This document shows positions 28,756-52,847 of a stretch of DNA of 64,000 nucleotides, piece by piece. The position numbers were made by a program, and so were the translations under genes. How positions within the stretch are numbered: position 1 is the first letter of the stretch; each line of letters starts with the position of its first letter. Location of the stretch: the NCBI GenBank assembly GCA_021845465.1, contig JAKBRL010000001.1, positions 18,361-82,360 on the forward strand, given 5' to 3'. The notes beneath the pieces were generated by a model, which saw only the letters and a program-made list of their open reading frames with translations, was not told the DNA's origin and made no database searches. Origin of the DNA: Microcaldota archaeon (GTDB taxonomy: Archaea > Micrarchaeota > Micrarchaeia > Micrarchaeales > CABMGC01).

Positions 28756-28998
28756 TCAATCGTAATCAGAATCTGCCAGAATCTCTATTATCTGCCCTTG
28801 TCCCAGCCCAGATGGAAATTTATCAAGTTTTATTACTATGAATGAGTCCTGTATTCCGGAAACAGTGCCTGGCCATACGTGCTCATTTGAATCTACATAT
28901 TGTGCCTTTTTACCTATTAGCGTTTTTATGTCTACAGGTTCCATTGGAGTTGCCAGAAGATTATCTTCATCCAAAGAGGTAACTATTGCGTTTATGAT
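28756..28998 (-). CDS. Small conserved-looking protein, about 80 aa, with a non-standard start
   Basis: The core IGKKAQYVDSNEHVWPGTV and DSFIVIKLDKFPSGLGQGQ alternates like a small beta barrel (Sm-like or KOW-like), but I cannot name it. The first conventional start is a TTG at 28974 with no ribosome site. A GTGAT site at 29002-29006 points, at the usual 3-nt gap, to ATC (28996-28998), with ATA next; an in-frame TAA just upstream blocks further extension. The reading MINAIVTSLDEDNL follows. tRNA-Gly lies about 45 bp upstream on the same strand and may share its transcript. Confidence 0.65.
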   Translation of the reverse strand: MINAIVTSLDEDNLLATPMEPVDIKTLIGKKAQYVDSNEHVWPGTVSGIQDSFIVIKLDKFPSGLGQGQIIEILADSDYD

Positions 28999-29001
28999 AA
29001 A

Positions 29002-29006
29002 ATCAC
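29002..29006 (-). promoter_or_regulatory. Ribosome site GTGAT 3 nt before an ATC codon
   Basis: Reverse strand AAGTGAT-TTT-ATC-ATA. It decides the start of the 80-aa protein, because no ATG, GTG or TTG lies in frame between the upstream TAA and codon 9. Confidence 0.55.
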
Positions 29007-29043
29007 TTTACTATTGGTTCTCAGAATAAATATTTAAATTAAC

Positions 29044-29116
29044 TGCGCCAACCGGGATTTGAACCCGGGCCACGAGCTTGGGAAGCTCGGATCCTACCAG
29101 GCTAGACAATTGGCGC
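29044..29116 (-). tRNA. tRNA-Gly (anticodon CCC)
   Basis: 73 nt. Acceptor arms GCGCCAA and TTGGCGC pair fully. The anticodon stem CGAGC/GCTCG holds the loop TTCCCAA, giving anticodon CCC. The T arm is CCGGG-TTCAAAT-CCCGG. The discriminator is A and no CCA is encoded. No intron is seen. Confidence 0.95.
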
Positions 29117-29134
29117 CTTTTAGTCTGGTTTCTG

Positions 29135-29638
29135 TTATTGATCCTTTTTCTTTTCGTCAAGCATCTTTTTGCCGAGAGCTTCCCTATTTTTAATGTCTTT
29201 CATTACTTTTTCATAATCTTCCTTGCTGAGAACTCTGCCCAGTATGTATTGGGAGTAGTTTATAGATATGCTTGCTATATCAAGTAGGATTGACTGCAGT
29301 TCGCTTGGGCTTATTTTTATTTCGCTTAAAGGCTTGAGTATCTCTATCCCTGCAGGAGCGAAATTGAAGGAGATATTCACAAGAGAGCCTATATCTTTTA
29401 CAAGTGTTGTTACTGCGGCGCTGGTTGTATAGACGTCTTCAAGTTTTATAGGTTCTCTTATTTCACCTACGCAGTATATTACCCCTTGGGATTTGAGAAG
29501 GCGGTTGTTTATCATTTCAGTCATTATAGGCTGGAGATCTTCTTGCTTCTCGCTCTGCATGTCGAAATGCAGCCTTGCAAGTATTCCTCCCTTTGCTATT
29601 GTTTCTTCTGTAAGTTCATCGACTTCTGATTTTCCCAT
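29135..29638 (-). CDS. Hypothetical protein, 167 aa
   Basis: I do not recognise a family. The sequence is soluble, with an N-terminal helix-rich part (EVDELTEETIAKGGILARLHFDMQ), a central alpha/beta stretch with CVGEIREPIKLEDVYTT, and a lysine-rich C-terminal helix. It starts 4 bp after the hisS stop on the same strand and probably shares its transcript. tRNA-Gly follows 18 bp behind its stop. A role linked to translation is only a guess from the neighbours. Confidence 0.7.
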   Translation of the reverse strand: MGKSEVDELTEETIAKGGILARLHFDMQSEKQEDLQPIMTEMINNRLLKSQGVIYCVGEIREPIKLEDVYTTSAAVTTLVKDIGSLVNISFNFAPAGIEILKPLSEIKISPSELQSILLDIASISINYSQYILGRVLSKEDYEKVMKDIKNREALGKKMLDEKKKDQ

Positions 29639-29642
29639 TGGA

Positions 29643-30920
29643 TCAACTTTTTAGCTTAGATATAGCTTCTTCAATATCAAACATTTCTTCTTCTCCGCTT
29701 ATCATGTCTCTGATGCGGATTTTTTTTGAGAGCCGCTCCTGGTTTCCTATTATTGCAACATATTTTATGCGCATTGAATTTACATATTCGAGCTGTTTCG
29801 CAAGGGATCGTTTTGTGACACCAAGATCTGCATATATGCCTGCCTTTCTAAATGTAGATGCTATCTCTATTGCATACTCTTGATTTTCTTCCTTTATATA
29901 TGCTATGTGTATCCTTGAATATGTCTTTAGGAGCTCTGCCCTGTTGAGCAATTCGAACACTCTCGATACTCCAATGGCGCTTCCTACTGCAGGCATGCTG
30001 TTTTTTGAATACATCTCGATTAGATTGTCGTATCTTCCCCCTGACGCTATAGTTGGGAGTCTTTTGCCGTCTTCATATGTTACGAATTCCCAGACACCCC
30101 CAGTATAGTAGTCAAGTCCTCTTGCTAGTGATATGTCGAATTTTATTTTTTCTTCAAGTCCGTTAAGCTTCAACATTCTGAATAGGGATTCGAGACTTTC
30201 CAGGGAGTCTTTTGCTTCCGGGAGCTGGGCGTGGAGCCTTGCCAAGGTCTCCTCGTTTTTCTCATTTGAGGTATTTATGAATGAGATGAGGGAAATGGCA
30301 TCCTCTTTTTCGGTTCCAAGTGATATGAGTTTTTCGATTATTTCGTCTTGGCTTATCTTCTCAAGTTTGTCTATTACCCGTATGGCCTCATTATGCCTCT
30401 GGTCAGGAACCCTGAACTTTCCTAGGATTCTGTCTAGAATCGTTCTGCTGTTTATCAATATACGGTAATCAGTTATGCCTAATTCGCCGAGTGCGAATGC
30501 TATTGGAGAGATCACTTCAGCGTCGCTTATCGGTTCTGAACTCCCTATTATGTCTATATCGGCTTGTATGAATTCACGATTGCGCATTTTTTGTGGTTCG
30601 TCCATACGCCAGACATTTCCGATCTGATATCTTTTGAATGGCAGGGGAAGGTCTTTGTTCATGGCCATAAAGCGCGCTAGAGGTACTGTGAAATCATATC
30701 TGAGCCCTTCCTCCGCCCCTTCTATTTTATATATTTCTTTTTTGGCATCTTCTCCGTATGCTTTTGCATTTAAGGTTGAGAGAAGCTCTATTGCAGGAGT
30801 TGTTATAGGATGGAATCCGAAGCGCTTGAATGCTTCCTCTATTACCAGCATAATTTGTTTTAAGAGTATTGTTTCTCCAGGACTGTAATCCTTTGTGCCG
30901 CGAGGAAGGCTTAATTCCAT
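29643..30920 (-). CDS. hisS: Histidyl-tRNA synthetase
   Basis: Class II enzyme charging tRNA-His. It starts with PRGTKDYSP. Motif 2 is seen around RYDFTVPLARFMA and FQIGNVWR-like YQIGNVWRMDEPQ...REFIQADIDIIG; the histidine signature is ARGLDYYTGGVWEF; motif 3 is ASGGRYDNL. An anticodon-binding domain follows from about residue 335. The 425-aa length is normal. It is cotranscribed with the 167-aa unknown protein. Confidence 0.96.
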   Translation of the reverse strand: MELSLPRGTKDYSPGETILLKQIMLVIEEAFKRFGFHPITTPAIELLSTLNAKAYGEDAKKEIYKIEGAEEGLRYDFTVPLARFMAMNKDLPLPFKRYQIGNVWRMDEPQKMRNREFIQADIDIIGSSEPISDAEVISPIAFALGELGITDYRILINSRTILDRILGKFRVPDQRHNEAIRVIDKLEKISQDEIIEKLISLGTEKEDAISLISFINTSNEKNEETLARLHAQLPEAKDSLESLESLFRMLKLNGLEEKIKFDISLARGLDYYTGGVWEFVTYEDGKRLPTIASGGRYDNLIEMYSKNSMPAVGSAIGVSRVFELLNRAELLKTYSRIHIAYIKEENQEYAIEIASTFRKAGIYADLGVTKRSLAKQLEYVNSMRIKYVAIIGNQERLSKKIRIRDMISGEEEMFDIEEAISKLKS

Positions 30921-30960
30921 TTGTCTACCGTTGTATTCCCTAATGGTAAATTAAGAGAGT

Positions 30961-31275
30961 TCAAAGATTCTTGGTTAGCCAAGATTTGAACATCTCCTTT
31001 GGCATTGCGCCCACTGATGTTGCCTTGACTGCACCATCCTTGAATAACAATACGGAAGGTATGCTCATTATGTTGTATTTTGCTGCTATTTCCTGATTTT
31101 CGTCAGTATTGAGTTTTGCAAACTTTACTTTTCCAGAATATTCTTTTGAGACTTCTTCTATTACAGGAGAAAATATTCTGCACGGACCGCACCATGGCGC
31201 CCAGAAGTCAACTACAACAGGAGTAGTGGATTTCATTACTTCTTTTTCGAAGTCATTTTGATTGAGTTCTATCAT
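30961..31275 (-). CDS. trxA: Thioredoxin
   Basis: 104-aa disulfide reductase. The active site is WAPWCGPCR with cysteines 29 and 32, and the conserved cis-proline is in SIPSVLLF. Standard length, no signal peptide, so cytoplasmic. GGTG precedes the ATG. It lies alone between hisS and the histone gene, which is divergent. Confidence 0.96.
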   Translation of the reverse strand: MIELNQNDFEKEVMKSTTPVVVDFWAPWCGPCRIFSPVIEEVSKEYSGKVKFAKLNTDENQEIAAKYNIMSIPSVLLFKDGAVKATSVGAMPKEMFKSWLTKNL

Positions 31276-31390
31276 TTTCGCACCTTATTATATTCTGCCT
31301 CTTTGGATTTATATATCTTTCAGATGATTATTAATAAGTGATGAGCAATACTTCTGATAAAGGATGATGAAGATCTTGAGTGCTGAATTT

Positions 31391-31606
31391 ATGGCAAGCA
31401 TACCGAAGGCTTCAATAAAGAGATTCGTTAAGAAAAGATTTAAAGCCAATATAACAGACGAAGGAGCCGATGAGATAGTCAAGATACTTGAAGAAAAGGC
31501 AGAGAGGATATCAAAGCACGCAGTAGGCAATGCTAGGAAAGAAAAGAGAGGGAAAGTGACCAAAGCCGATGTGATGAAGTACGTCATAGGAGGCTATGAT
31601 GAGTAA
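31391..31606 (+). CDS. Archaeal histone
   Basis: A single histone fold of 71 aa starting MASIPKASIKRFVKKRF, with the three helices visible (ITDEGADEIVKILEEKAERISKHAVGNARKE) and the closing GKVTKADVMKYVI. It packages chromosomal DNA as dimers and larger stacks. The frame is open to ATGs at 31364/31367, which would add nine residues; I prefer 31391 because the histone family starts a few residues before the first helix. The stop overlaps the next gene's start by 8 bp. Confidence 0.9.
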   Translation: MASIPKASIKRFVKKRFKANITDEGADEIVKILEEKAERISKHAVGNARKEKRGKVTKADVMKYVIGGYDE

Positions 31607-32159
31607 TATTATCACTGCATATCTTAGTCCTGATGGAAGATACAGAACAATGCCATATAAAAAAAACGCAGAAGATAGATTCTGCCTCTCTGAAAAAACA
31701 AGGAAAGGAACCTTGATTACCGAATTCGGTAAGAATGGGAGGATAATAGACCAGATTTATTTGAATGGAGGCGATCCTGAATCTTCTCTCGAGAAGTATC
31801 TAGGGATAAGTTTACATATAGAGAAGAAGGCAAGTTATGATAGAGTCAATGTTTCAGCTTCATGCAGAAAATGTGGATCGCGGGAAAAGATTTACAGAGA
31901 GCTTGACCTCACTCTTATCTCATATGTTGAAAGCGTTCCTGTTGTTCCTATATTCAGGTGTATTGGTTGTGGAAGCAGATTTTATGCTATGGAGATAGAG
32001 TATCTAAATGCTCTTGTATCTAGAAATACTGCTCTGTTCACTGAAGACGAACGCAGGGGTATTGAAAAGGACAGTGAGAGTGCAATAAAGGAACTTAATG
32101 AGTACATAATAAGAATATTTGCGTCAAAAAAGATAATGAGATTGGTATTTGAAGAGTGA
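31599..32159 (+). CDS. Zinc-ribbon protein of unknown function
   Basis: 186 aa. Two CxxC knuckles, CRKCGS and CIGCGS, lie about 40 residues apart and likely bind one zinc. The region before has a beta-rich domain (LSPDGRYRTMPYK) and the C-terminus is a long helix. No family assignment. AGGAGG at 31588-31593 favours ATG 31599 over 31596. It overlaps the histone gene and is followed directly by the PRC-barrel gene, so the three are probably cotranscribed. Confidence 0.75.
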   Translation: MSNIITAYLSPDGRYRTMPYKKNAEDRFCLSEKTRKGTLITEFGKNGRIIDQIYLNGGDPESSLEKYLGISLHIEKKASYDRVNVSASCRKCGSREKIYRELDLTLISYVESVPVVPIFRCIGCGSRFYAMEIEYLNALVSRNTALFTEDERRGIEKDSESAIKELNEYIIRIFASKKIMRLVFEE

Positions 32160-32163
32160 TATA

Positions 32164-32397
32164 ATGATGATTTCTGAACTTTATGGGAAGAGAATAATAT
32201 CGAATGAGGGAAAGAGGCTTGGCGAGGTTAAGGGAGTGATGATAAATTTCGAGGAGGGAGAGATATCACATCTGCTCCTTACGGAGCCCGAGAGACTCAT
32301 CAAAAGCCAAAATCCCAGAACAGATATACAGAAAGGCAGCGTCGCTTACAAAAGAGTCAGGAATATCTCCGAAACGATTATCGTAGGAAAGGAATAG
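32164..32397 (+). CDS. PRC-barrel domain protein
   Basis: A 77-aa single-domain PRC barrel: ISELYGKRIISNEGKRLGEVKGVMINFEEGEI is the typical opening of the fold. Such proteins bind RNA or ribosome-related partners (RimM-like) or sit in signalling complexes; the role here is unknown. The frame is open to a TTG at 32149, but GAGTGAT with a 3-nt gap marks the ATG at 32164. It is third in the histone gene group. Confidence 0.8.
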   Translation: MMISELYGKRIISNEGKRLGEVKGVMINFEEGEISHLLLTEPERLIKSQNPRTDIQKGSVAYKRVRNISETIIVGKE

Positions 32398-32414
32398 AAG
32401 AGTATTTTCTTATT

Positions 32415-32459
32415 CTGGTAAGTAGAGGCAAGCAGTTATAATCTGGTTTTTCTTACCGG
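32415..32459. terminator. Inverted repeat between convergent genes
   Basis: CTGGTAAG and CTTACCGG pair (8 bp with one G-U) across a 29-nt loop between the PRC-barrel gene and rpoP. It could mark transcript ends for both. It has no long T run, so the terminator label is tentative. Confidence 0.3.
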
Positions 32460-32476
32460 AGATGGAGAAGTGAGGG

Positions 32477-32611
32477 TCAATCAGTCTTTACTTCCCTTGC
32501 CATGGAAGATCTCTTCTTTGAAACTACCCTGTAGCCGCAGTATGGACATCTTATGTTGTTTCGTTCCAGCGACTTTATCTCTTTTCCACAGTGAATGCAC
32601 ATGTAGGCCAT
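32477..32611 (-). CDS. rpoP: DNA-directed RNA polymerase subunit P
   Basis: A 44-aa zinc-ribbon subunit (Rpb12 homologue) found by translating the gap. It starts MAYMCIHCGKEI, has the second knuckle in IRCPYCGYR, and ends in a basic stretch. All four ligands are present. It lies downstream of the rpl37ae/exosome operon, where rpoP is found in many archaea. GATGAT lies a few nt before the ATG. Confidence 0.93.
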   Translation of the reverse strand: MAYMCIHCGKEIKSLERNNIRCPYCGYRVVSKKRSSMAREVKTD

Positions 32612-32631
32612 ATCAATCATCAAGCGTAATT

Positions 32632-32991
32632 TTATTTGGTCTTTGCCTTTAACCATTTTGCAAGTTCAACATGAAGGTTGGACTTGCTTGTATCTATTAT
32701 CCTTATATTCATCACGGCTTTGTATTCTTCCTCATTCAGTGTCATTATTGGAGTATACTTAGGCTCTTTTGCGAAATGAATCTCAAGCCAGTGCACCTTT
32801 CCTCTTAGGTAATCCCTTATTATTTCCTCAGTCATAGGTATGGAAGAAAAACTGAATAAGATGCCATTGCACCAGTATAGGGGCATATTGCCCTGCGGAG
32901 TTATTCTCTCCCTGAGAAGATCGTCTTTAGGTACTTCTACCACTTCATGGACTACAAGTTCTTCTATAGGAGAATATGTTATCCTTACCAT
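32632..32991 (-). CDS. Hypothetical protein, 119 aa
   Basis: No family recognised. A soluble alpha/beta protein with ITYSPIEELVVHEVVEVPKDDLL at the start and WLEIHFAKEPKYTP in the middle. It sits between rpl37ae and rpoP in the exosome superoperon, a place where Pcc1 or prefoldin subunits occur in other archaea; it resembles neither. A GATGAT ribosome site lies 3 nt before the ATG. Confidence 0.7.
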   Translation of the reverse strand: MVRITYSPIEELVVHEVVEVPKDDLLRERITPQGNMPLYWCNGILFSFSSIPMTEEIIRDYLRGKVHWLEIHFAKEPKYTPIMTLNEEEYKAVMNIRIIDTSKSNLHVELAKWLKAKTK

Positions 32992-33080
32992 CTTATCATC
33001 TTTTCAATTATAACCTATTTGATGCCTTCTGTTTATAATACATAGGCCTGAACTGATGCCTTGCTGTCTGGGCTTGTCTC

Positions 33081-33317
33081 TCATTCGGAATTTCTTCCCA
33101 GTATTTTGCTTACAGCTTCTCCTGCCGCAGTATGGAAAGAGTACGCTCCTCCGGCATATGTAGCATTGCAGTATTCACAGTGCCATATCCCTGTTCCTTT
33201 TCTCCTTACGGCTTCCTTGCCGCAGGTATTGCAGACATACCTGGCTTTCTGTTGCCTTATTACTGCCTCTTCCCTTTTTCTGAGGCTTACACCATATCGT
33301 ATGCTTTTTTTTGCCAT
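33081..33317 (-). CDS. rpl37ae: 50S ribosomal protein L37Ae (eL43)
   Basis: 78-aa zinc-ribbon ribosomal protein with CNTCG and CEYCN knuckles and the GIWHCEYCNATYAGGAY core that identifies the family. It starts 1 bp after the rrp42 stop (the genes touch), with GAGGAG as ribosome site. L37Ae beside the exosome genes is a standard archaeal gene order. Confidence 0.95.
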   Translation of the reverse strand: MAKKSIRYGVSLRKREEAVIRQQKARYVCNTCGKEAVRRKGTGIWHCEYCNATYAGGAYSFHTAAGEAVSKILGRNSE

Positions 33318-33318
33318 A

Positions 33319-34104
33319 TTAGTCTCCTCTTGTTTTCTGTATTATTCCTCTGAGCTCTTTTGATTTCTCAAATGTATTGTCTACAAACATGTCTATCTCG
33401 TTTGGAAGGAATGATCCGCCGAGACCTTTTTGCATTGCCCTTACAAAATGCTCATCGTTTGCTATTGTCATCCTTGCGTCTGCAAATACCTCCTCGCTTG
33501 CGTTTGTATCGAGAAGTATGGAATTTCCGATTTTTGCATATGTACATGATGTGCTTATATTATTTATAGGCAGCCTTTCCAGATTTCCTTCCCTTATGAC
33601 TTTACCTTCTTCGTACTTAGGCATGCGTGAATTATACAGGGCCGCAACTGCTGCTAGAGCTGAAGAGTCAAAAAGGTTGCCATCATAATTGAGCACGTAT
33701 AAATCTATGAAAACATTCCATGATTTGCCCTCTTCTATGAAGAGTTTTTTTACATCGATTATATTGCCTGCTCTTATTCCGCGATCTACTACCCTGGCTA
33801 GCTCCACTGCATCGGGAGAAGGTGGGCCTGCATCATAGGAATGATGAGCCATTGGAAGGAGCTCCGCACCTGTCATTATGGATCCTTCATCTGGCTTATC
33901 CTTCATAGGTTCTCCTACATCCATCTTTATTCCTACCAGAATTTTTGTGTTGCCCAGGCGTATCTCTGCAGAGCCTTCGGCGTGTGGTATTTTTCCTGTT
34001 TCCAAAGATATCTTCCTGAATGAAAGAAGATTCCTGCCGTCATCCCTTATTCCTTTGGAAAGCCTTTCCTTTAGATACTGTTCTGTTAAAATAGTCGTGT
34101 TCAC
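33319..34104 (-). CDS. rrp42: Exosome subunit Rrp42
   Basis: RNase PH-fold subunit that forms the hexameric exosome ring with Rrp41 and helps bind RNA without itself being catalytic. The 261-aa length and GIRDDGRNLLSFRKISLETG start are typical, as are EGSAEIRLGNTKILVG and ELARVVDRGIRAGNIID. The start codon is GTG (34102-34104). It follows rrp41 after 9 bp. Confidence 0.94.
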   Translation of the reverse strand: MNTTILTEQYLKERLSKGIRDDGRNLLSFRKISLETGKIPHAEGSAEIRLGNTKILVGIKMDVGEPMKDKPDEGSIMTGAELLPMAHHSYDAGPPSPDAVELARVVDRGIRAGNIIDVKKLFIEEGKSWNVFIDLYVLNYDGNLFDSSALAAVAALYNSRMPKYEEGKVIREGNLERLPINNISTSCTYAKIGNSILLDTNASEEVFADARMTIANDEHFVRAMQKGLGGSFLPNEIDMFVDNTFEKSKELRGIIQKTRGD

Positions 34105-34113
34105 ATTCTCGCC

Positions 34114-34839
34114 TTATATTCTTTCTTCTATCTTTTGATAATGCTCAAGAAGCGCATCTTTCTGTGTCTTGGTTATTATCTCTCCTGCTTTTATGACCAT
34201 CTCTATTCCTCTGTGGATCTCTTCTGAGGTGAGTTCACCATCCATTTGAAGAAGATTTATCTCCTTGGTTCTAGGGTTTATTGCTATAGGCATGTCAGCA
34301 GTAGAATAGTTGTCTTCTGTCTTATCCATGTCCAATATCAATGTGTTTTCTGCTTTGCCTACTGACACCGCAAACGGCATGTCCCGCATAGGAATGCCTG
34401 ATGCCGCAAGCGCTACAGATGCACACGTTATTCCTGCCGCACGTGTGCCTCCATCGCTCTGCAATACTTCGATAAATATGTTTATTTCTGTTCCGGGAAA
34501 GAGATCAGTAAGCACCACATTCTCAAATACCTCCTTTGTTACTTTGGATATTTCTATTGCTCTCCTGTTCATTCCAGGTCTGCCGTGTTCTTCCAAAGAT
34601 GAGAAGGGAGCCATGGTATACCTGCATTTTATGACTGCCTTGTTTAAGTCCTGCGTATGTCTAGGTAGAGCCTCTCGTGGGCCATATACTGCAGAAACAA
34701 TCTTGTTGTTTCCCCATTCTATGTATGCTGATCCTGAAGCATTCTTTATAGGGTTGATAGATATTTTGATTTGGCGCATTGTCCCAGGATCCCTGCCGTC
34801 AAGCCGTTTTCCGTTTATTATTAATGTTGGTTTTTCCAT
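34114..34839 (-). CDS. rrp41: Exosome catalytic subunit Rrp41
   Basis: Phosphorolytic 3'-5' exoribonuclease subunit. It has the RNase PH signature: KRLDGRDPGTMRQIKI, GPREALPRHTQ with phosphate-site Arg residues, VLQSDGGTRAAGITCAS and the acidic active-site region LDMDKTEDNYSTADMP. 241 aa, normal. It lies between rrp4 and rrp42 with gaps of 14 and 9 bp. Confidence 0.95.
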   Translation of the reverse strand: MEKPTLIINGKRLDGRDPGTMRQIKISINPIKNASGSAYIEWGNNKIVSAVYGPREALPRHTQDLNKAVIKCRYTMAPFSSLEEHGRPGMNRRAIEISKVTKEVFENVVLTDLFPGTEINIFIEVLQSDGGTRAAGITCASVALAASGIPMRDMPFAVSVGKAENTLILDMDKTEDNYSTADMPIAINPRTKEINLLQMDGELTSEEIHRGIEMVIKAGEIITKTQKDALLEHYQKIEERI

Positions 34840-34853
34840 TTTATCTTCCGTCT

Positions 34854-35459
34854 TTATTCTTTACTTGGAGTTTCAAGCATCTGAGCTATTCTTTCAGTTA
34901 AGCCAGGTATGTGCGACTCGTCCTGTATGCGCATTATGGCTTTTGTTGCAATGTCAGAATCCCCTCCCTTTATCCAGATTAGGCCATTCATGCCTACCGA
35001 TATGCTGGCCTTTGTCTTTTCTGTTATCTGCCTTATCATTGTGTCCTGCTTGCCTAGAAGCCTTGGTACCTTTGAAGGCTTTATCGCTATCACCTTTCCT
35101 CCGAAAAGCACTCTTGGTCTTGATAGTATAACTGTGCCTGTTTTGTCAAGTTCTTTCACAACAGCTTCAATTATATCGCCATTTACCACGCTTGTCTCTG
35201 AGAATTTGGATATAATAAGTCCTTTGTAAGGCGCATTTAAGCCTATTACGTCGGTATTGAGCTTTGCTTCTTCCACTATGCCTACAATTTTCTCTCCTGG
35301 GACAGGGTACCATAATCCTTCCATCGGTATGAATGAATTTTTTTCGTCGTCATACATTCCTATCACAGTAGAGCATGTCTTGCCGTTCTCGACTATAGTG
35401 TGGTCTAGCCTTAGCGGTTTTTCCGCTATTATGTCTCCTGGGAGAACTATTTTCCTCAT
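34854..35459 (-). CDS. rrp4: Exosome RNA-binding cap protein Rrp4
   Basis: Cap subunit with an N-terminal domain (PGDIIAEKPLR), an S1 domain (VVNGDIIEAVVKELDKTGTVILS) and a KH domain (LGKQDTMIRQITEKTKASISVGMNGLIWI). It recruits RNA to the exosome pore. I start at ATG 35459 (MRKIVLPGD), which has AAGTGAT 4 nt before it, and not at the in-frame codon three residues upstream. Confidence 0.94.
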   Translation of the reverse strand: MRKIVLPGDIIAEKPLRLDHTIVENGKTCSTVIGMYDDEKNSFIPMEGLWYPVPGEKIVGIVEEAKLNTDVIGLNAPYKGLIISKFSETSVVNGDIIEAVVKELDKTGTVILSRPRVLFGGKVIAIKPSKVPRLLGKQDTMIRQITEKTKASISVGMNGLIWIKGGDSDIATKAIMRIQDESHIPGLTERIAQMLETPSKE

Positions 35460-35468
35460 TAAAATCAC

Positions 35469-36149: not shown

Positions 36150-36154
36150 AGAAT

Positions 36155-36850: not shown

Positions 36851-36915
36851 AATATCACTTAATATAATTAGCAGATTTGCTATGTTTTAGGATAATCTAA
36901 TTTTAATCATTAAAA

Positions 36916-37182: not shown

Positions 37183-37187
37183 TTATA

Positions 37188-37844: not shown

Positions 37845-38216
37845 CTATCGCAGGTTCCTGTTTTCCCCTAATGTCAGTGCAACTATGCCTTGCGCCCGGA
37901 GTCTGCGCCGCAGTTCTGTATCGTTTGTGCAGACTTTTGCCTCTTTCGACTTAACAGCATGGCATAATATCCAGTCGTCAACATGGCCTTCGGAGCGGAT
38001 TATAGATATTTTTTTGCCCTGCATAAGCTGCAATGCTACAGCTGCGTCCTTGGAGTTTTTTTTCTTTGATTTTTTTAGCTTTTCAAGCTCTGCTACTGTA
38101 CCACTTGCCACTATGATCTCGTGATCTGGAAAGGCTTCGCTTACTATATCGAATGCGTCAGCTTTTATTGAAAGCCCGAAGAGAATCGAGCTTGTGTCTA
38201 TTATTATCTTTTTTAT
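37845..38216 (-). CDS. PIN-domain protein (Fcf1/VapC9-like) with an ATA start
   Basis: 123 aa. The N-terminus KKIIIDTSSILFGL provides the first PIN aspartate, VHVDDWIL-like HVDDWILCHA the central acid pair, and CTNDTELRRRLRAQGI the closing strand. The first conventional start (GTG at 38109-38111) would remove 35 residues including the catalytic first Asp. GAGTGAT lies 3 nt before ATA (38214-38216), and an in-frame TGA fills those 3 nt, so nothing upstream is available. PIN genes of this type lie beside rpoE'/spt4 in many archaea, supporting the call. Confidence 0.82.
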   Translation of the reverse strand: MKKIIIDTSSILFGLSIKADAFDIVSEAFPDHEIIVASGTVAELEKLKKSKKKNSKDAAVALQLMQGKKISIIRSEGHVDDWILCHAVKSKEAKVCTNDTELRRRLRAQGIVALTLGENRNLR

Positions 38217-38219
38217 TCA

Positions 38220-38224
38220 ATCAC
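38220..38224 (-). promoter_or_regulatory. Ribosome site GTGAT 3 nt before an ATA start
   Basis: Reverse strand GAGTGAT-TGA-ATA. The rpoA2 start has the same layout, GAGTGAT-TGT-ATG. A short hairpin (GCCC/GGGC, 38237-38249) lies a little further upstream. Confidence 0.6.
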
Positions 38225-38283
38225 TCTTTAGAATATGCCCAGAAAGGGCTAAATTAATTAAGAGACTATAGGTATTGCTGTTT

Positions 38284-45725: not shown

Positions 45726-45735
45726 CCTCTTCTGT

Positions 45736-48498
45736 CTACTTCCCAGCAGTTTTCCAGAATTTGCTGTTCTTTATGAAGGTCTTCTGCGCCTCTATTAGGT
45801 CTTTTATGAATTTATCCTTGTCAGGCCTTACCATCCTCAGTAATCTTGAGGCTGTTACTGTCCCTACTCCGTATGTAAGAAGGGCCACAATGGCTCTGTC
45901 GCCATATGCGCTTATCATGCCGGTTTCAGAAATTGCATTAGAGTAGGCCTGGCGGTCTGCTGGGGAAAGTTTTTTGCCTTCCTGTTTTTTCTTCAATGCC
46001 TGTACGTATGCTTCTTCATATATGGAAAGCATGGTGCTTCCACATCTCTTGCATTTTAGTTTTGTATTTTCTGAAAGGTTTATCTTGTGGCTGAATTGGA
46101 GTGAACAAAAAGTACATAATATTACTACCTCTTTTGTAGCGAATTTCTCCTCAAATGCGGCTATTTCCTCTTTGCCTGGGGATATTGCTGATAAAAATTC
46201 CCTGTAGTTTAGAGCCTGGTAGAGGATTTCCCTTGTAAGTGGAGACTCTGTGGTTCTTGTCTCGAATGTTATCGTGCCTTTTCGAATTTTTCCTAGAAAG
46301 TTCCCTACAGTGTGTGAATCGAGGTAGTTTTTCTCCAGGTCTCTTATTGTTTCTTCATATATTAGAGTGCCCTTGTAAAATTCAACAATCCTGTTGGCTG
46401 TATTCTTTGTTATTGCTGCCTTCTTGTCTATAATTCCGGAAAGCTTTGCAATCTGTATAAACTTGTATCTGAAAAGCTCCGATTTCTCTATGAAGGACTT
46501 CATGGTTTCCGAATCTATGTTAATTAGTGTATTGAATACTTTCTGCATGTTTGGAATTTTCATAAGCTGTCTGCAATCTATAAGTATCACATATGGAGTG
46601 GATTTTACATAGGCCCTGTCGTGTACTGAAGTTGCGATTAGGCCGGATATTATTCTGGCGAGATACTCGTTGGCAAGTTTTCCTAGGGGAAGATATACTA
46701 TGATATAATTTTCAAGCTCCTCTATTATTACGTTTTCTTCTTTGAATACGAAATTTTCCCTCTGTTGTTCTGAAAAGACTGAGAGTGCTTTGAGTGTGTT
46801 CCTGTCCAGATTATCTGAAACTTCGGAAGGGTAGTTGAGAAGATTCATAGTTTTCCTTGCTATCTCATATGAAACCGGTATGTCTTCCCCTTCCCAATCC
46901 GGAATTGCCGATTCGAGGTCCTGTGACTGTTCTACAAAGATTGTGTTTTCCTCTATGCTTATAACCTTCCACGGAGTGCCTTTTGTTATAAAGGTGCTGT
47001 TTTGGTCAAGATAACTGTGCACAAATTTTTCATCCAGTGTGGAGATTATGCGGTTTTTTACAGCTTCTCTTACATAAAACCTCGGCGAGTCAGGAATAAC
47101 GCTTATGTTGCCGTAAAAATATTTCCTTGTCCTTGATGAGATTGAAAGTTCTCCTTCCACTGCCTTGAATAGGTGGAGGTCTTCTCCTAGCTTCAATGCC
47201 TCTTCAAATTTTTCATTTTTTAGATTGGAGAATGTTGATGTCCTTAAAAATATTCGTTTTACTGCTTCTGTTTTTATCTTTCCGTGTTCCAGAATCATCG
47301 CGGTTATCTGATTTATCATCACGTCGTATGGACAGTCTTCAATGTTTTTGTTTTCTAAGATGCCTGATTGTGCCGCACTTGCCACTGAGGCCGATTCCGC
47401 TGATTCGAGTATTCCGGATGTGATTATGTGCCCGTTTGACGTTTCGCCTTCTCGGTGTCCTCCTCTGCCTATTCGCTGTATCAAGCGGTCAGGTTGTTTT
47501 GGCGAACCGTATTGTATTACATGATCAACACGGCCTATGTCTATCCCGAGTTCTAATGAGCTAGTCGCTATTATTGCATTTAGTTTGCCTTCCTTGAATG
47601 TGTTTTCTATTTCAATGCGTTCTTGTTTGTCCAGGGAGCTGTGGTGAATGCCTATTGAATTGGTGCCTTCTAATCTGTTCAGGTATATGAGTTTGCTTCC
47701 TAAAGATTCCACAGCCTGCCGCGTATTAGCAAATACTATTGAGGCCCCAGATGTATTTATCAGGTCTGAAATCCGCTCAATTCTTGCAAGCGACTTGTCA
47801 TCTAGTGAAAATGCTTGTGCAAATTCAGGGTGTGGGCGCTGCGGAATTGTTGGCATTTCAATCTTGATGGAGAGTTTTTTTGGTGTCTTGACTTTTATTA
47901 TTTCATACGGACGTTTTCCGAATAGAAAATAGGATACTTTTTCTGGGTCTCCTATGGTTGCGCTTATTCCTATGCGTTGGAACGGGCCTGATATTTCTTC
48001 TATACGCTCCAAGGCAACAGCAAGCTGCGCTCCCCTTTTGTTGTAATATAGTTCATGCGCCTCGTCTATTATTACTGTTTTGATGTTTTGGAGAGAGTGG
48101 CGTAGCCTGGGGGAGAAAAATAGGTTTTGTAGGGTTTCTGGAGTTGTTATCATAAGGCTTGGCGGAGCGGAGGCCTGCTTTGATCGCTCTGTTGTTGTGG
48201 TGTCTCCGTGCCTTGACGCCATGCTTATTCCCATCTCCCCACATAACCAGACCAATCTTTTTTCAAGGTCCCTGTTTAGTGCTCTAAGTGGTGTAACATA
48301 TATTGCACGTATGCCTGGGGCTTCTCTGTTTTTTCCTAGGTTTTCAAGGACAGGAAGGAGTGCTGCTTCCGTTTTTCCGTTGCCGGTAGGCGCAGATATT
48401 ATGCAGTTCTTTCCCTCTTTTATTATAGGAATTGCTAATTTCTGGATCTCGGTAAACGTAGTGAATTTTTCCAGAAATAGTTGATATATGTCTGGCAT
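45736..48498 (-). CDS. lhr: Lhr-type ATP-dependent helicase
   Basis: Superfamily 2 helicase of the large-helicase-related family, 920 aa, implicated in DNA repair and replication-fork processing. Motif I is APTGNGKTEA, Ia TPLRALN, II DEAH (VIIDEAHELYYNKRG), III ISATIG, and the C-terminal RecA lobe has IATSSLELGIDIGRVDHV and QRIGRGGHR. The Lhr-core domains follow. A CxxC...CxxC knuckle near residue 810 (CTFC, CKRC) resembles the zinc site in archaeal Lhr relatives. It is convergent with gyrA, 10 bp apart. Confidence 0.93.
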   Translation of the reverse strand: MPDIYQLFLEKFTTFTEIQKLAIPIIKEGKNCIISAPTGNGKTEAALLPVLENLGKNREAPGIRAIYVTPLRALNRDLEKRLVWLCGEMGISMASRHGDTTTTERSKQASAPPSLMITTPETLQNLFFSPRLRHSLQNIKTVIIDEAHELYYNKRGAQLAVALERIEEISGPFQRIGISATIGDPEKVSYFLFGKRPYEIIKVKTPKKLSIKIEMPTIPQRPHPEFAQAFSLDDKSLARIERISDLINTSGASIVFANTRQAVESLGSKLIYLNRLEGTNSIGIHHSSLDKQERIEIENTFKEGKLNAIIATSSLELGIDIGRVDHVIQYGSPKQPDRLIQRIGRGGHREGETSNGHIITSGILESAESASVASAAQSGILENKNIEDCPYDVMINQITAMILEHGKIKTEAVKRIFLRTSTFSNLKNEKFEEALKLGEDLHLFKAVEGELSISSRTRKYFYGNISVIPDSPRFYVREAVKNRIISTLDEKFVHSYLDQNSTFITKGTPWKVISIEENTIFVEQSQDLESAIPDWEGEDIPVSYEIARKTMNLLNYPSEVSDNLDRNTLKALSVFSEQQRENFVFKEENVIIEELENYIIVYLPLGKLANEYLARIISGLIATSVHDRAYVKSTPYVILIDCRQLMKIPNMQKVFNTLINIDSETMKSFIEKSELFRYKFIQIAKLSGIIDKKAAITKNTANRIVEFYKGTLIYEETIRDLEKNYLDSHTVGNFLGKIRKGTITFETRTTESPLTREILYQALNYREFLSAISPGKEEIAAFEEKFATKEVVILCTFCSLQFSHKINLSENTKLKCKRCGSTMLSIYEEAYVQALKKKQEGKKLSPADRQAYSNAISETGMISAYGDRAIVALLTYGVGTVTASRLLRMVRPDKDKFIKDLIEAQKTFIKNSKFWKTAGK

Positions 48499-48592
48499 AA
48501 ATAGACCATAATTTACTTTGTACGGGATCTCCCGACGCTTTTATGATGCTGTGAATTCTTCAGGCTTGTTTTGAGAAAATTCCCGAATATCA

Positions 48593-50200
48593 TCATATTG
48601 TTATTAGTGCTCCTCCCTGTATTGTGTTTGATGTGTTGTTTTCAGTATAATTCAGTAGAAGGCTAAGCTGCAGGTTTAGGGGTATGGCGTTTATGGTCTT
48701 GCTATTGTTGTAGCATTCTGTTGTTACAAGTGTGGAGGCGCCCACAGCAAGCGTTTTGTTGATAGATGACCCTGGACCAATTCCGGCCATAAAACAGCCA
48801 ATTGAGTTTATCTTGATTGTCTGATTTGCAATGTTTGTTAAATTCAGGGATATTGAACTGTTGGCAAATGTTGGGGTACCACAGGAAACAACCTCGCTGA
48901 AATCACAGGTGTTTGATATTCCCGAGGTGAAGTTTATTGGATCTCCTGGCAGTTTTAGTTTTTGTATCATGCCTATATTGCTGCTTACCTGTTCGAAGGG
49001 ATTTGCTGATGAGTTTGTTATTGAGAATATGCTTATGTTGTATTTGCCGAGATATTCTGTTGTGCGTATGAGGGACACGTTTCCTAAGCTGCCTGTATTT
49101 TGCAACATGTAGACACTGCAGAAAGAGCTCGAATTGAAAGTGTCTGTAAGCCCATAGCAGGTGTGATTTTCAGTAAAATTGTCCCAGAGGACGTAATATG
49201 CAAGGGCATCTTTTCCAGTAACTATGAGCTTTCCGTATCTGGACCATGTATTGTTGTTTTCGTAGAAGTCTGCGAGTGAAACTGTGTTGTTTTGGAATGG
49301 TAGAAGTTTTTTCAGGGTGTTGTTTTCTGAGATCCCTGACGGTGTTTTGCTCAGGATTTCTGCGCACGTTTTGTTTCCTTCCCATGAGAAGGTCTTTATC
49401 CATCCTGAAGAATACCAGCTGCATGTTGTCACGTTTGGCGAAAGCCTTATTAGGGAGATCGGCTGGGTTCCTATCGTTTGGTTGGAAACGGTTAGGTTTT
49501 CGGCCTGTGCCGCTACTCCTATTATTGAGGGTTTGAGGTATCCGTCGAACCATAGGGAAAGCCCGTTCCCGTTATTGTATTCTGCGCCTGCTGTTGAAAT
49601 GTTTTCGATATAACTGCCTCCAATTGTGAAGAGGCGGTCCATGAATAAATTGACTGGGGAGATACTGGAGAGTTTTGTCTGGCTTACACTGTAGTTTTTG
49701 TTTAGATATGAAGAGATCCCATACCCTAAAATTGTCATGTTTGAGGCATAAAAGCCAGTCTGATTTACAGGCAGCATCTTCTGTGGTGCCGCGTTTGCAG
49801 GAGGAAGAACAGTTACCGTTATGCTGGTCGATGCCTGGTTTATGTTGCCATATAATTTTGTAGGGTCTGTCACGGCTGTGAAATTATAACTTCCCGGATT
49901 TCCGAAGGTGTGTGTTATTTTTATTATGGTTCCTTTTCCAGTGGGAAGAGAAATGTTATATATGTCTGTCAGATTTCCATTTAACGACAACCCTACCGGA
50001 AGCCCTTTTACCGCGGGCCCGTTGTTAAGTACCTGTAAATTCAGCGTGGCCTGCTGGTACTGGTATATAGTAGTATTAGATCCGGAAGAGGAGAAGTTTA
50101 GGGATATTGATATTGGAGGGTTGTAGTTTAGTCTCACATAGAGTGCTGCCGCCAGTATTATTACAATAAGTACAATCCAGTAGTATATTTCTTTTTTCAT
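48593..50200 (-). CDS. Membrane-anchored surface protein, unknown
   Basis: 535 aa. One N-terminal membrane helix (YWIVLIVIILAAALYVRL) after a short basic start places the rest outside the cell. The outer part is rich in Asn, Ser and Thr with many N-x-S/T sequons. A CARDB/Ig-like segment lies at about residues 30-130 (QQATLNLQVLNNGPAVKGLPVGLSL is of that type, split here). Cysteines are few and scattered. GGTG precedes the ATG. It follows the 156-aa winged-helix gene after 18 bp and probably shares its transcript. Confidence 0.8.
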   Translation of the reverse strand: MKKEIYYWIVLIVIILAAALYVRLNYNPPISISLNFSSSGSNTTIYQYQQATLNLQVLNNGPAVKGLPVGLSLNGNLTDIYNISLPTGKGTIIKITHTFGNPGSYNFTAVTDPTKLYGNINQASTSITVTVLPPANAAPQKMLPVNQTGFYASNMTILGYGISSYLNKNYSVSQTKLSSISPVNLFMDRLFTIGGSYIENISTAGAEYNNGNGLSLWFDGYLKPSIIGVAAQAENLTVSNQTIGTQPISLIRLSPNVTTCSWYSSGWIKTFSWEGNKTCAEILSKTPSGISENNTLKKLLPFQNNTVSLADFYENNNTWSRYGKLIVTGKDALAYYVLWDNFTENHTCYGLTDTFNSSSFCSVYMLQNTGSLGNVSLIRTTEYLGKYNISIFSITNSSANPFEQVSSNIGMIQKLKLPGDPINFTSGISNTCDFSEVVSCGTPTFANSSISLNLTNIANQTIKINSIGCFMAGIGPGSSINKTLAVGASTLVTTECYNNSKTINAIPLNLQLSLLLNYTENNTSNTIQGGALITI

Positions 50201-50218
50201 TTATGACACCATACAGAT

Positions 50219-50689
50219 TCAGATCATTGCGTTCTTGTTTTTCATTTCTTTTACAACTTCCCCTATTTTTGCGGAAACTTCTTTGTAAAACGAATCGAAA
50301 ACACTCGAAGACCAGTTATATGCGTCAAAACGGTCTCCGGTGGCTGGGTGCTTGAAGCTGAATTTTCCTTCTCCGTTTTCAAGAAAACCCATCTTTTTCA
50401 TGCGGAGTAGATGATATCTGAGTGTTTTTTCATTTATTGGCTTCCATGTTTTGCTTATATATTCGGACATCTCCTTCACTGTTGGGTCCTGTTTCTTGAG
50501 AAACTGGAAGTAAATCATGGAATCTAGAACTGCGAGGGATCCCATTCTTGACTCTCCTGAGTTTATTATGCCTAGGGAAAGTGCAAGCCAGCGGACTGCC
50601 GATCTTCGTGTCTCTACAGCTTCTCGGCTCAGCCTTAGATTCCTTATTGTAAGTTCTTTTTCTATAAGTTCAGCTTCGCTTAGTCCCAG
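50219..50689 (-). CDS. Winged-helix protein with a CTG start
   Basis: 156 aa. The C-terminal half looks like a winged helix: PTVKEMSEYISKTWKPINEKTLRYHLLRMKKMGFLENGEG. The N-terminal part (SREAVETRRSAVRWLALSLGI) is open for 48 codons before the first ATG (50545) and reads as a helical domain. CAGTGAT lies 3 nt before CTG (50687-50689), and an in-frame TAA a few codons further up leaves no ATG, GTG or TTG. It is likely a transcriptional regulator of the downstream surface-protein gene (inference from gene order). A 14-bp palindrome lies just upstream. Confidence 0.72.
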   Translation of the reverse strand: MGLSEAELIEKELTIRNLRLSREAVETRRSAVRWLALSLGIINSGESRMGSLAVLDSMIYFQFLKKQDPTVKEMSEYISKTWKPINEKTLRYHLLRMKKMGFLENGEGKFSFKHPATGDRFDAYNWSSSVFDSFYKEVSAKIGEVVKEMKNKNAMI

Positions 50690-50692
50690 ATG

Positions 50693-50697
50693 ATCAC
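50693..50697 (-). promoter_or_regulatory. Ribosome site GTGAT 3 nt before a CTG start
   Basis: Reverse strand CAGTGAT-CAT-CTG. It decides the start of the 156-aa winged-helix gene, 48 codons upstream of its first ATG. Confidence 0.5.
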
Positions 50698-50724
50698 TGT
50701 TTTGATATTAAAGTTTGGCAGGAT

Positions 50725-50738
50725 AATTATTAATAATT
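50725..50738. promoter_or_regulatory. 14-bp AT-rich palindrome between two winged-helix genes
   Basis: AATTATTAATAATT is a perfect palindrome directly after the stop of the 50740 gene and about 30 bp before the ribosome site of the next. It may be an operator or promoter element; low complexity makes chance quite possible. Confidence 0.35.
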
Positions 50739-50739
50739 G

Positions 50740-51201
50740 TTATGCCTGGCTGGTTTCTTCATTGTTTTCTCTGTTGGGGTTTTGTATTCGGCTGTCTGTT
50801 TTTTTGCTTGTTCTTGGCTTTTGTTTTTCGGTTTTAGCGTTTGCAAATATTAGATTAAGGTCTTCTGCGGTGTCTGTCTCTATCCATGCTTTTATATATG
50901 TAGATATATTCTTCAGGGGGCGGGTGTATCTGTCTGTAAAACTGTATATGTTATTTTCGTGTTTTAGAAGGCCTACAGATACCCCGTAATCAAGATAGCG
51001 TTTCCATGTGGCTGTGGGAAGCACATCAGAGCAGTCTTTTAGCCTGAGTTCTTTTGTGTGTTTTACCGATTCTAGCGCCAATGCGAACCGATATGCCTTT
51101 GTTTCGTTGTCAAAATATATTTTGGCTATTTCCTTGACGCTTGGGCTTTTTAGCTTTTCTCTGAGTGGGGCGTCTTCAAACTCCCAGTATTTTATTGACA
51201 T
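50740..51201 (-). CDS. Winged-helix-like protein with a disordered tail
   Basis: 153 aa from ATG 51201. The middle (PSVKEIAKIYFDNETKAYRFALALESV, spread over two helices, then LLKHENNIYSFTDRY) looks like a winged helix similar in layout to the downstream gene. The last 45 residues are Lys/Glu/Arg/Asn-rich and probably disordered. The frame is open to ATG 51339, but TATA-like boxes at about 51317-51327 and 51347-51357 would start the transcript inside that extension, so I use the shorter form; an intermediate non-standard start is possible. Function unknown, probably regulatory. Confidence 0.65.
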   Translation of the reverse strand: MSIKYWEFEDAPLREKLKSPSVKEIAKIYFDNETKAYRFALALESVKHTKELRLKDCSDVLPTATWKRYLDYGVSVGLLKHENNIYSFTDRYTRPLKNISTYIKAWIETDTAEDLNLIFANAKTEKQKPRTSKKTDSRIQNPNRENNEETSQA

Positions 51202-51395
51202 ACCAACACAGAAGACTACGTTGCTTATGGATATATCCTTTTCGTATGATTTGAGGGTCTGGTTCTTCCGGGTGCTGTGTTCTGTTGGAAGTGTACACCG
51301 GGCCGCTTTTTGGATAAGATATATATACCTAAATAACATAATATGTATTTATAAACAGATTTTCTCTGTCTGCGTTTTGTTCTGGGTCGATAAAT

Positions 51396-52106
51396 ATGTC
51401 TAAAAAATTAGAGGTAAAGGGGAAAAAAAGCAATAAGTTGCCGTCAGGAAAGAAGAGTGCAGGGAAGAAGACGGTTCCTGAAACTAAAAAACCCATAAAG
51501 GCTAAGACAAAGAATAGCACTTCCAGAATAGCGGAACCGGTCCACATAACACACAAAGAAAAGCGATCTGTTGGGGCGCGTGCGGAAAAGGCCACAGAAT
51601 TCAAGGCGCCTCCTCCTGAAATCCTTTCGATTGTAGAAAACGCAATGTGTGATGAGATTTTTGTAGATTATATATCAAAAAACATAGGAAGCCAGGCAAA
51701 CGGGCTTCTTAAAAGGCTTTTGGAGGGCCCACAGAAGGACGAAGCACTCGCAGAAAAAGCCGAAATTAAATTAAACGAGGTTAGAAGATCGCTAAATCTC
51801 CTAAATAGACACGGGATTGTAAGGTATGATGTTAAGAGAGATAACACCGGATGGCTTACTTTCGAATGGCACGTAGATTATGTAGCCTTTTCGGATTTTT
51901 ATAAGACACTGAATAAGAAAACAGAAAGCAGAGGCAGCCCCCTTCCGGAAGGCTGTAATGATTTTTTTGTTTGTGTTGTTTGTTCTAAACAGCAGAGCCT
52001 GGTCTACCCTTTCGATATCGCATATGAGAAGAGTTTTAAATGCAATTGTGGTAAGAATTTAGAAGCAATAACAAGAAAAGCAGCAGAAGAACTTATAAAA
52101 AACTAA
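51396..52106 (+). CDS. tfe: Transcription initiation factor E (TFE alpha) with a lysine-rich N-terminal tail
   Basis: TFE helps open the promoter with TBP and TFB. The winged helix spans about residues 75-150 (YISKNIGSQANGLLKRLLEG and RSLNLLNRHGIVRYDVKRD). The zinc ribbon near the C-terminus is CVVCSKQQ...FKCNCGKN. Unusually, about 70 residues rich in Lys, Ser and Pro (KKSNKLPSGKKSAGKKT) precede the winged helix; ordinary archaeal TFE starts almost at it. Its TATA box is at about 51345-51355. Initiator tRNA lies 12 bp downstream. Confidence 0.9.
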   Translation: MSKKLEVKGKKSNKLPSGKKSAGKKTVPETKKPIKAKTKNSTSRIAEPVHITHKEKRSVGARAEKATEFKAPPPEILSIVENAMCDEIFVDYISKNIGSQANGLLKRLLEGPQKDEALAEKAEIKLNEVRRSLNLLNRHGIVRYDVKRDNTGWLTFEWHVDYVAFSDFYKTLNKKTESRGSPLPEGCNDFFVCVVCSKQQSLVYPFDIAYEKSFKCNCGKNLEAITRKAAEELIKN

Positions 52107-52118
52107 AACTGAGAGAGT

Positions 52119-52193
52119 AGCGGGGTAGGGTAGCTCGGAGTGCCCGCTGGGCTCATAACCCAGAGAACGGTGGTTCAAATCCACTCCCCGCTA
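52119..52193 (+). tRNA. Initiator tRNA-Met (anticodon CAT)
   Basis: 75 nt. Acceptor arms AGCGGGG/CCCCGCT, with the A1-U72 pair of archaeal initiators. The anticodon stem has the three G-C pairs (GGG-CTCATAA-CCC) needed for P-site entry. T arm GTGG-TTCAAAT-CCAC. Discriminator A, no encoded CCA, no intron. Confidence 0.94.
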
Positions 52194-52347
52194 TAACAAT
52201 TTCCAAAACAAAACAAATTTTCAAAAAAAACACTTCCAAAATGTACACCAAGGCCCCAGATTTCCACTATTCGTTTTCTTTTTATATAGTATGTAATTAG
52301 AATATTTTAATAACTGAGTTATATTTAAGAAAAGAACCTGTTAAATA

Positions 52348-52382
52348 TTAGTGGAAATATAGGGTATACCACTAAAGGTGAT
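52348..52382 (+). promoter_or_regulatory. Hairpin and ribosome site before a GTT start (GINS gene)
   Basis: TTAGTGG (52348-52354) pairs with CCACTAA (52369-52375), and TATA-GGG-TATA inside extends the stem. It ends one nt before GGTGAT (52377-52382), which lies 3 nt before GTT at 52386. A TATA box at about 52270-52285 implies a leader of roughly 80 nt. The hairpin may expose the ribosome site and help the weak start codon. Confidence 0.55.
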
Positions 52383-52385
52383 TTC

Positions 52386-52847
52386 GTTTCAACTGAAGAG
52401 ATATTTGCTGTATTAGAAAGAGAACGTAGAACAGGTGAACTCCTGCCGTTGGGTAAAGACTTTTATAATAAAAACAAAAACGAGACAAAAAACCCAGAAA
52501 TGGAAACAGCAGAGAAACAAAAGGAAAACCACGACAAACTCATAGAAGCTCTAAAAGCAAAACGCTTGCAGAAAATACTCACATACATGGCTTATGGAAG
52601 AAGCCTGCCTGATCAGATACCGGAAGAAGAAGAAAGGTTATATATACGTATAAACAATATAATTAAAGAAGAGAAAGCAGGAAACAATAAAACAAAGATA
52701 AAAATAGTATCTGACATGCCGGAACTGGTAACACCTGAAGGAAGGAAAATAGGGCCTTTCGCAAAAGACAGCATAATAGATCTGGAAAGTGAAAAAGAAG
52801 CGGAATTTTTAATAAAGAACAAACTAGGAGAAAAAGTGATTGTATGA
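52386..52847 (+). CDS. GINS complex subunit (Gins51/Gins15 type) with a GTT start
   Basis: 153 aa. A helical A domain is followed by a C-terminal B domain (KIVSDMPELVTPEGRKIGPF), the order of Sld5/Psf1-type subunits; GINS joins MCM at the fork. The first conventional start is TTG 52449, which cuts off IFAVLERERRTGELLPL, the typical GINS N-terminus. GGTGAT-TTC-GTT gives MSTEEIFAVLERE; an in-frame TAA at 52326 and no ATG, GTG or TTG in between leave GTT as the best start. Its stop overlaps the next start as GTATGA. Confidence 0.82.
   Translation, partial: VSTEEIFAVLERERRTGELLPLGKDFYNKNKNETKNPEMETAEKQKENHDKLIEALKAKRLQKILTYMAYGRSLPDQIPEEEERLYIRINNIIKEEKAGNNKTKIKIVSDMPELVTPEGRKIGPFAKDSIIDLESEKEAEFLIKNKLGEKVIV

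Follow-up and report, generated by a model that had tools for sequence, protein, structure and literature searches.

Four protein-coding genes in a 64-kb stretch of a Candidatus Micrarchaeota genome (hereafter designated the window) appear to begin at ATA, ATC, CTG, and GTT instead of ATG, GTG, or TTG, each codon standing exactly three nucleotides behind a GTGAT ribosome-binding site, that is, a Shine-Dalgarno (SD) site. We consider it very probable that these and similar codons found elsewhere in the same lineage are genuinely used as near-cognate translation starts, placed by the SD site and decoded by the ordinary initiator Met-tRNA. The initial annotation of the window had proposed that the ribosome-binding site directs the choice of start, and comparison with relatives supports that reading. 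The window belongs to a metagenome-assembled genome (MAG), designated G000, that totals 992 kb over 38 contigs. It was compared with five congeneric genomes (G001–G005, G002 being a sister species) and 54 genomes representing 43 other genera, all in one order. Throughout, a start is called conventional when it is ATG, GTG, or TTG, and forced when no such codon is available in frame.

Odd start codons in the window and their counterparts in relatives

Scanning the window for every GTGAT-N3-codon with a frame open for at least 50 codons gave 22 sites, among which are all four starts reported initially, at the positions given in Table 1. At the same spacing, six other frames carry ATG (32164, 52844, 60585, 36850, 15784, and 13182) and one TTG (55347), and the other 11 lie mostly within or antisense to longer frames. 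Upstream stops had been said to exclude conventional starts; indeed, an in-frame stop is located 20 (GINS subunit), 7 (winged-helix-like protein), 1 (PIN-domain protein), and 4 (80-residue protein) codons upstream, with no ATG, GTG, or TTG in frame between it and the odd codon in any of the four genes. The GTG within the SD site was rejected as a start codon, being out of frame at a gap of three in all of them. The first conventional start downstream is found 21, 48, 35, and 8 codons inside, in the same order, and for the PIN protein a start at +35 would remove the IIIDTS strand (position 1 of PIN_9 corresponds to residue 4). The annotation had counted family-conserved residues of the PIN and GINS proteins among those missed.

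Alignment of the starts across relatives, which had been proposed as a check, gave an odd codon of the same class for three of the four genes. The start of the 80-residue protein is ATC in G000, G002, and G004, ATA in G003 and G005, and ATT in G001, and the frame upstream is closed without a conventional codon in all six congeners, five of which keep AGTGAT-N3 in front of the gene. Among 45 titled loci retrieved by alignment of this protein (Candidatus Micrarchaeota MAGs, two of them labelled Marsarchaeota), 37 show ATG at the aligned position, 2 show GTG, and 6 an Ile codon, these six comprising five congeners and one locus of another lineage (L232, ATA). For the PIN gene, 3 of the 30 homologs, its own included, lack a conventional start up to codon +5, and all three (G000, G002, and G004) have ATA behind AGTGAT or, in G004, AGTGGT. 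The PIN gene of G003, with ATA behind AGTGAT, was left uncounted as forced because this ATA lies four codons further upstream than the aligned start and is itself preceded by two in-frame ATGs. As for the winged-helix-like gene (29 of 30 relatives, a partial match, L108, having been dropped before counting), two relatives besides the window lack a conventional start, and both have CTG, preceded by AGTGAT in G002 and by GGTGAG in G028, which belongs to another genus; the remaining 27 carry an in-frame ATG, GTG, or TTG.

The GINS gene appears to be the weakest of the four cases, its GTT being a probable start. None of its 30 relatives is without a conventional start; G002 keeps GGTGAT-N3-GTT with different spacer letters, and the leaders of G000 and G002 differ by indels.

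Table 1 Positions in the window of the odd-start genes, their ribosome-binding sites, and neighbouring features
Feature	Position	Strand	Evidence or remark
PIN-domain protein (PF18477 PIN_9), 123 aa, start ATA 38216-38214	37845..38216	-	TGA directly upstream; Pfam
Ribosome-binding site AGTGAT and 3-nt spacer TGA of PIN gene	38217..38225	-	Sequence; complementary to ATCAC of 16S 3' end
Conserved 80-aa protein, family unknown, start ATC 28998-28996	28756..28998	-	Ile codon in 6/6 species of genus
Ribosome-binding site AGTGAT and spacer TTT of 80-aa gene	28999..29007	-	AGTGAT-N3 in 5/6 species
Winged-helix-like conserved protein, 156 aa, start CTG 50689-50687	50219..50689	-	PF08461 match weak, below cut-off
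Ribosome-binding site AGTGAT and spacer CAT of winged-helix-like gene	50690..50698	-	Sequence; AGTGAT kept in G002
GINS subunit, 153 aa, probable start GTT 52386	52386..52847	+	Gins51_C and Gins23 matches, both below cut-off
Ribosome-binding site GGTGAT and spacer TTC of GINS gene	52377..52385	+	Sequence
Conventional comparison gene, GTGAT-TGT-ATG, 94 aa	52844..53128	+	Window scan
Initiation factor aIF2 alpha, ATG start in window	53130..53885	+	Aligned to G033 protein matching PF07541
tRNA-Met (CAT)	52118..52194	+	ARAGORN; identical in G002

Neither Pfam (E up to 0.1) nor NCBIfam (E up to 0.01) gave a match for the 80-residue protein. The genes of tRNA-Met, GINS, the 94-residue protein, and aIF2 alpha stand in a row at 52118-53885, and those of the tRNA, GINS, and aIF2 alpha are also near one another in relatives such as G002 and G033. 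A search of G000 matched both the PIN gene and the 80-residue protein gene and gave no match for the winged-helix-like gene, GINS, tRNA-Met, and aIF2 alpha, though the window holds them at 50222-53885; this region may be masked in the copy searched. A box resembling TAGTGGAA stands at 52340-52360, about 20–45 nt before the GINS start; it recurs in many of the 30 relatives (uncounted) and has the look of a conserved element of the leader or promoter. The intergenic stretch 38217-38280, which separates the PIN gene from a divergent neighbor at 38275 (IscU/NifU-like by eye), is well conserved between G000 and G002 and is perhaps a shared promoter.

RNase HII and further candidates

The clearest predicted case lies outside the window, in the gene of RNase HII, which is present in 60 of the 60 genomes and whose start was read in 44. 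At six residues ahead of the DEAGRG motif (which begins at residue 7), the codon is ATA in 15, ATC in 14, ATT in 7, and ATG in 5 genomes; GTT, CAA, and TCA occur once each. In 23 of the 44 genomes, belonging to 15 genera, the interval from the in-frame stop to the motif contains no ATG, GTG, or TTG, and the codon in these forced genes is AUA, AUC, AUU, or once GUU; in G011 and G043 a stop codon directly precedes ATA, and in 2 of the 44 the stop lies beyond the 60 bases read. GTG is found at position -8 in 18 of the 23 forced genes versus 48 of 350 presumed ordinary starts of G000, each taken as the first conventional codon near the coding edge (p = 6e-11, the 23 representing one gene and thus non-independent).

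Two screens of G000, covering 663,414 sampled bases and 612 closed called genes, gave seven candidates besides the four window genes. Five have the same codon in G002, namely, an amino-acid kinase (PF00696, CTG), a HAD protein (PF13419, ACG), RNase HII (TIGR00729, ATC), a Cgi121-like protein (NF011465, below the cut-off, CTG), and a membrane-like protein (by eye, ATT). The other two are a pyridine-nucleotide oxidoreductase (PF07992, ATA), for which G002 has ATG, and an ankyrin-like protein (by eye, ATA), for which the sampled G002 sequence holds only a poor match. Odd starts amount to 11 of the 612 sampled genes (~2%), a lower bound because the screens were non-exhaustive; 10 of the 11 carry a codon one base from AUG (ATA, ATC, ATT, CTG, or ACG), the exception being the GTT of GINS, and neither AAG nor AGG is among the listed starts. 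A start comparison gave hits in 20/457 genes of G000, 7/218 of G033, and 15/281 of G002, most of which resemble alignment noise, and only individually inspected hits were retained from it.

The HAD gene, read in 12 of the 29 genomes with a match, has ACG in G000, G002, G003, and G011 (another genus), and ATG in the other eight. In G033, a single-contig genome, the ACG starts of ribosomal protein S4 (L165), behind GAGGTGTT-TGA, and of aIF2 alpha (L162), with a stop directly upstream, look real; S4 has ATG in nine and TTG in one of ten relatives read, GTGAT-N3 preceding it in eight of them. A further candidate in G033 is L166 (CTG). The aIF2 alpha genes of G017 (ACG) and G020 (CTG), with in-frame GTG upstream, and the kinase gene of G005 (CTG), with in-frame GTG three codons up, were left uncounted.

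A genome scan against a letter-shuffled control, as had been suggested initially, revealed an excess of near-cognate codons behind GTGAT. Counts were taken at coding-edge sites with no in-frame conventional start upstream. In the sampled sequence of G000 and G002, the codon behind GTGAT-N3 is conventional at 26 sites, near-cognate at 8, and of another kind at 1 (the GTT of GINS), and each of the 29 other letter orders precedes at most 4 near-cognates (the highest being GATGT, with 9 other codons). When three congeneric genomes were pooled, the ratio of near-cognate to other codons was 8:1 at a gap of three versus 9:28 at gaps of 6–15 (Fisher p = 0.0007), and with GTG[AG]T it was 12:5 versus 20:47 (p = 0.004). 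For the looser motif GTGNN, again at a gap of three, the ratios were 14:7 in G000, 10:14 in G002, 2:4 in G004, and 2:18 in G033, so that by these counts the genome containing the window shows the strongest excess.

Assembly or sequencing error, or strain variation, that altered ATG or GTG at four sites had been named as the main alternative, and we regard it as highly improbable. It is refuted for the PIN, 80-residue, and winged-helix-like genes because MAGs of other species carry an equivalent codon at the corresponding position, and it is likewise refuted for the HAD, RNase HII, Cgi121-like, kinase, and membrane-like genes, for which the same or same-class codons recur in other species; the refutation is incomplete for GINS, whose GTT is common to G002 only, where an ATG also occurs upstream in frame. 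An error would fit a window taken from a 38-contig MAG, and it would fit those genes in which the odd codon occurs in only one of two genomes, that is, the oxidoreductase and an AlaX-like gene (by eye; ATG in G000, L035, and ATA at the same position in G002, L138).

Coding signature and points against the odd starts

Comparing G000 with G002 over the stretch between the odd start and the next conventional one, and scoring each codon as same/synonymous/nonsynonymous, gave 27/20/0 for the winged-helix-like gene, 12/8/0 for GINS, 17/10/7 for PIN, 6/1/0 for the 80-residue protein, 2/3/0 for the kinase, and 20/5/2 for HAD. Over these six genes, 47 codon changes are synonymous and 9 nonsynonymous, and 51 of the 140 third-position bases differ, as do 8 of the 280 bases at positions one and two. 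The same comparison of further genes gave 25/12/6 for the Cgi121-like gene, 11/1/0 for the membrane-like gene, and 13/0/0 for RNase HII, whose identity makes it uninformative. Such a synonymous-rich pattern would not be expected in proteins starting only at the downstream conventional codon. That the true starts are conventional codons further downstream or far upstream, with the apparent N-terminus arising by chance, thus seems very unlikely to us, in view of these coding-type substitutions from the odd codon onward, of the first PIN strand and the DEAGRG motif of RNase HII that a downstream start would cost, and of the in-frame stops 1 to 20 codons upstream of the four window genes; on the other side stand the conventional codon only 8 codons in for the 80-residue protein and the oxidoreductase, and the distant in-frame ATGs upstream of the PIN gene in G003.

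Several observations weigh against taking the odd codons as starts. An in-frame conventional codon upstream, which may be used, is present in 14 of the 44 RNase HII genes. For the GINS gene of G002, an ATG lies five codons upstream in the same frame, and GTT, which is one base from GTG as the annotation had said of each codon with respect to ATG or GTG, is two bases from AUG. For the oxidoreductase and the ankyrin-like protein, an error is possible, since G002 has ATG or no good match. No near-cognate codon follows GTGAT-N3 in G033 (0/8) or G004 (0/13), though the PIN gene of G004 has ATA behind AGTGGT and S4 and aIF2 alpha of G033 have ACG. The signature of PIN, with 10 synonymous versus 7 nonsynonymous changes, is weak. 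Moreover, the leaders (36 bases, -45 to -10) are conserved, with 3, 2, and 2 mismatches in PIN, winged-helix-like, and kinase genes, respectively, so that conservation has no sharp onset at the odd codon in these three; stops exclude an in-frame reading of these leaders.

Initiation machinery and relation to known systems

The 16S rRNA of G000 ends ...GATAGATCACCTCA, so that GTGAT, through ATCAC, and GGTGAT pair with its tail, and the tail GATCACCTC is found in G000, G004, and G033. The 16S of G000 (L342) ends ...GCGGATAGATCACCTCA, departing from the usual ending, ...GGTTGGATCACCTCC; G004 and G033 share GCGGATAGATCACCTC. Of the marks of SD-led initiation, a leader complementary to the 16S 3' end and a fixed gap of three nucleotides are present, and a start at AUG, GUG, or UUG is lacking in the four window genes and 23 of the 44 RNase HII genes. 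An altered initiator tRNA was rejected as the cause: the tRNA-Met of the window, presumably the initiator from the GGG/CCC of its anticodon stem, has the anticodon loop CTCAT like all 30 loci compared (31/31), the test within the genus covering the window and G002 because G001 and G003–G005 gave no match. Loss of aIF1 was likewise rejected, since SUI1 was found in 59 of the 60 genomes, the six of this genus among them, and aIF1 has an in-frame ATG before the conserved PDICPKC in the congeners read.

If start choice were broadly relaxed through altered initiation machinery, with no gene-by-gene compensation by the ribosome-binding site, the six different codons would be accounted for, as would an RNase HII start that varies among AUA, AUC, and AUU and is AUG in only 5 of 44 genomes. 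We nevertheless think this unlikely, because the odd starts make up such a small share of the sampled genes, tRNA and aIF1 look ordinary where found, and GTG at -8 is far commoner in the odd RNase HII starts than in ordinary ones. Least likely of all is RNA editing that restores AUG before translation (ACG to AUG, or AUA to AUI), for which chloroplasts offer a precedent; it would suit the ACG and ATA cases, but a single deamination type could not mend ATC, ATT, CTG, or GTT, and A, C, and T all occur as third base in the start codons of the 80-residue protein and RNase HII.

In the SD-placed initiation that we favor, the mRNA leader (GTGAT, GTGGT, or GGTGNN) would pair with the 16S 3' end, ...GATCACCTC, and this pairing would set the codon three nucleotides downstream into the P site, where the initiator Met-tRNA (anticodon CAU) would initiate despite one mismatch, the first residue most likely being methionine. 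The sequences show the codons, the pairing and spacing, the lack of a conventional start, the conservation across species, and the coding-type substitution from the odd codon; we infer the initiator tRNA as the decoder, methionine as the first residue, and a low output from the odd codon. The SD core and, mostly, the 3-nt gap are constant and the codon is variable (AUA, AUC, AUU, CUG, ACG, and GUU), as is expected if the SD site fixes the P site and the initiator tRNA tolerates one mismatch.

It is conceivable, though we put this forward only tentatively, that selection has maintained non-AUG starts in a small group of genes, RNase HII foremost, across one Micrarchaeota order as a translational brake, with output tied to the SD duplex and the mismatch and responsive to the supply of initiation factors or Met-tRNA, as an archaeal counterpart of infC control. 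The bacterial gene infC is repressed by IF3, a factor that archaea are not known to have. AUH persists over many species in RNase HII and the 80-residue protein though AUG is one step away; since RNase HII has AUG in five genomes, simple tolerance is also possible. If the odd starts are used, gene finders restricted to the three conventional start codons would trim or miss N-terminal parts of Micrarchaeota proteins, among them the catalytic motif of RNase HII. The gene set would then be natural material on how far SD pairing replaces codon recognition in an aIF1/aIF2 system, and would bear on whether weak starts are under selection.

Among open-licence PMC titles and abstract openings, no report was found of starts other than AUG, GUG, and UUG in Micrarchaeota or DPANN. 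With standard archaeal SD-led initiation, the present genes share the 16S tail GATCACCTC, the GGTGAT leader, the CAU initiator tRNA, aIF1, and aIF2 alpha; archaeal start codons are AUG, GUG, and UUG in excerpts of a review (PMC7531240), whereas here they appear to be AUA, AUC, AUU, CUG, ACG, and probably GUU. A P. abyssi leader, GGAGGUGAUUUAAAUG, has four bases after GUGAU in the part of the report available (PMC6237735). Compensation of weak starts follows the same logic, in that stronger SD sites accompany GUG and UUG starts, in archaea significantly for UUG only, but excerpts of that study describe it for AUG, GUG, and UUG only (PMC5622118). Streptomyces sigR, with its GTC start, is likewise non-conventional and was missed by annotation, but it is bacterial and experimentally proven, with no fixed ribosome-site rule described in excerpts of the source (PMC5472188). 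Also comparable is bacterial infC (IF3), whose ATT/ATC start differs from AUG at the third base and, according to the same excerpts, is kept in distant bacteria (PMC5472188); a conserved non-canonical codon, likewise off AUG at its third base, is seen here across species in the 80-residue protein (6/6 congeners) and RNase HII (15 genera). infC differs in being bacterial and a single gene, whereas Micrarchaeota would have a gene set that also uses CTG, ACG, and probably GTT.

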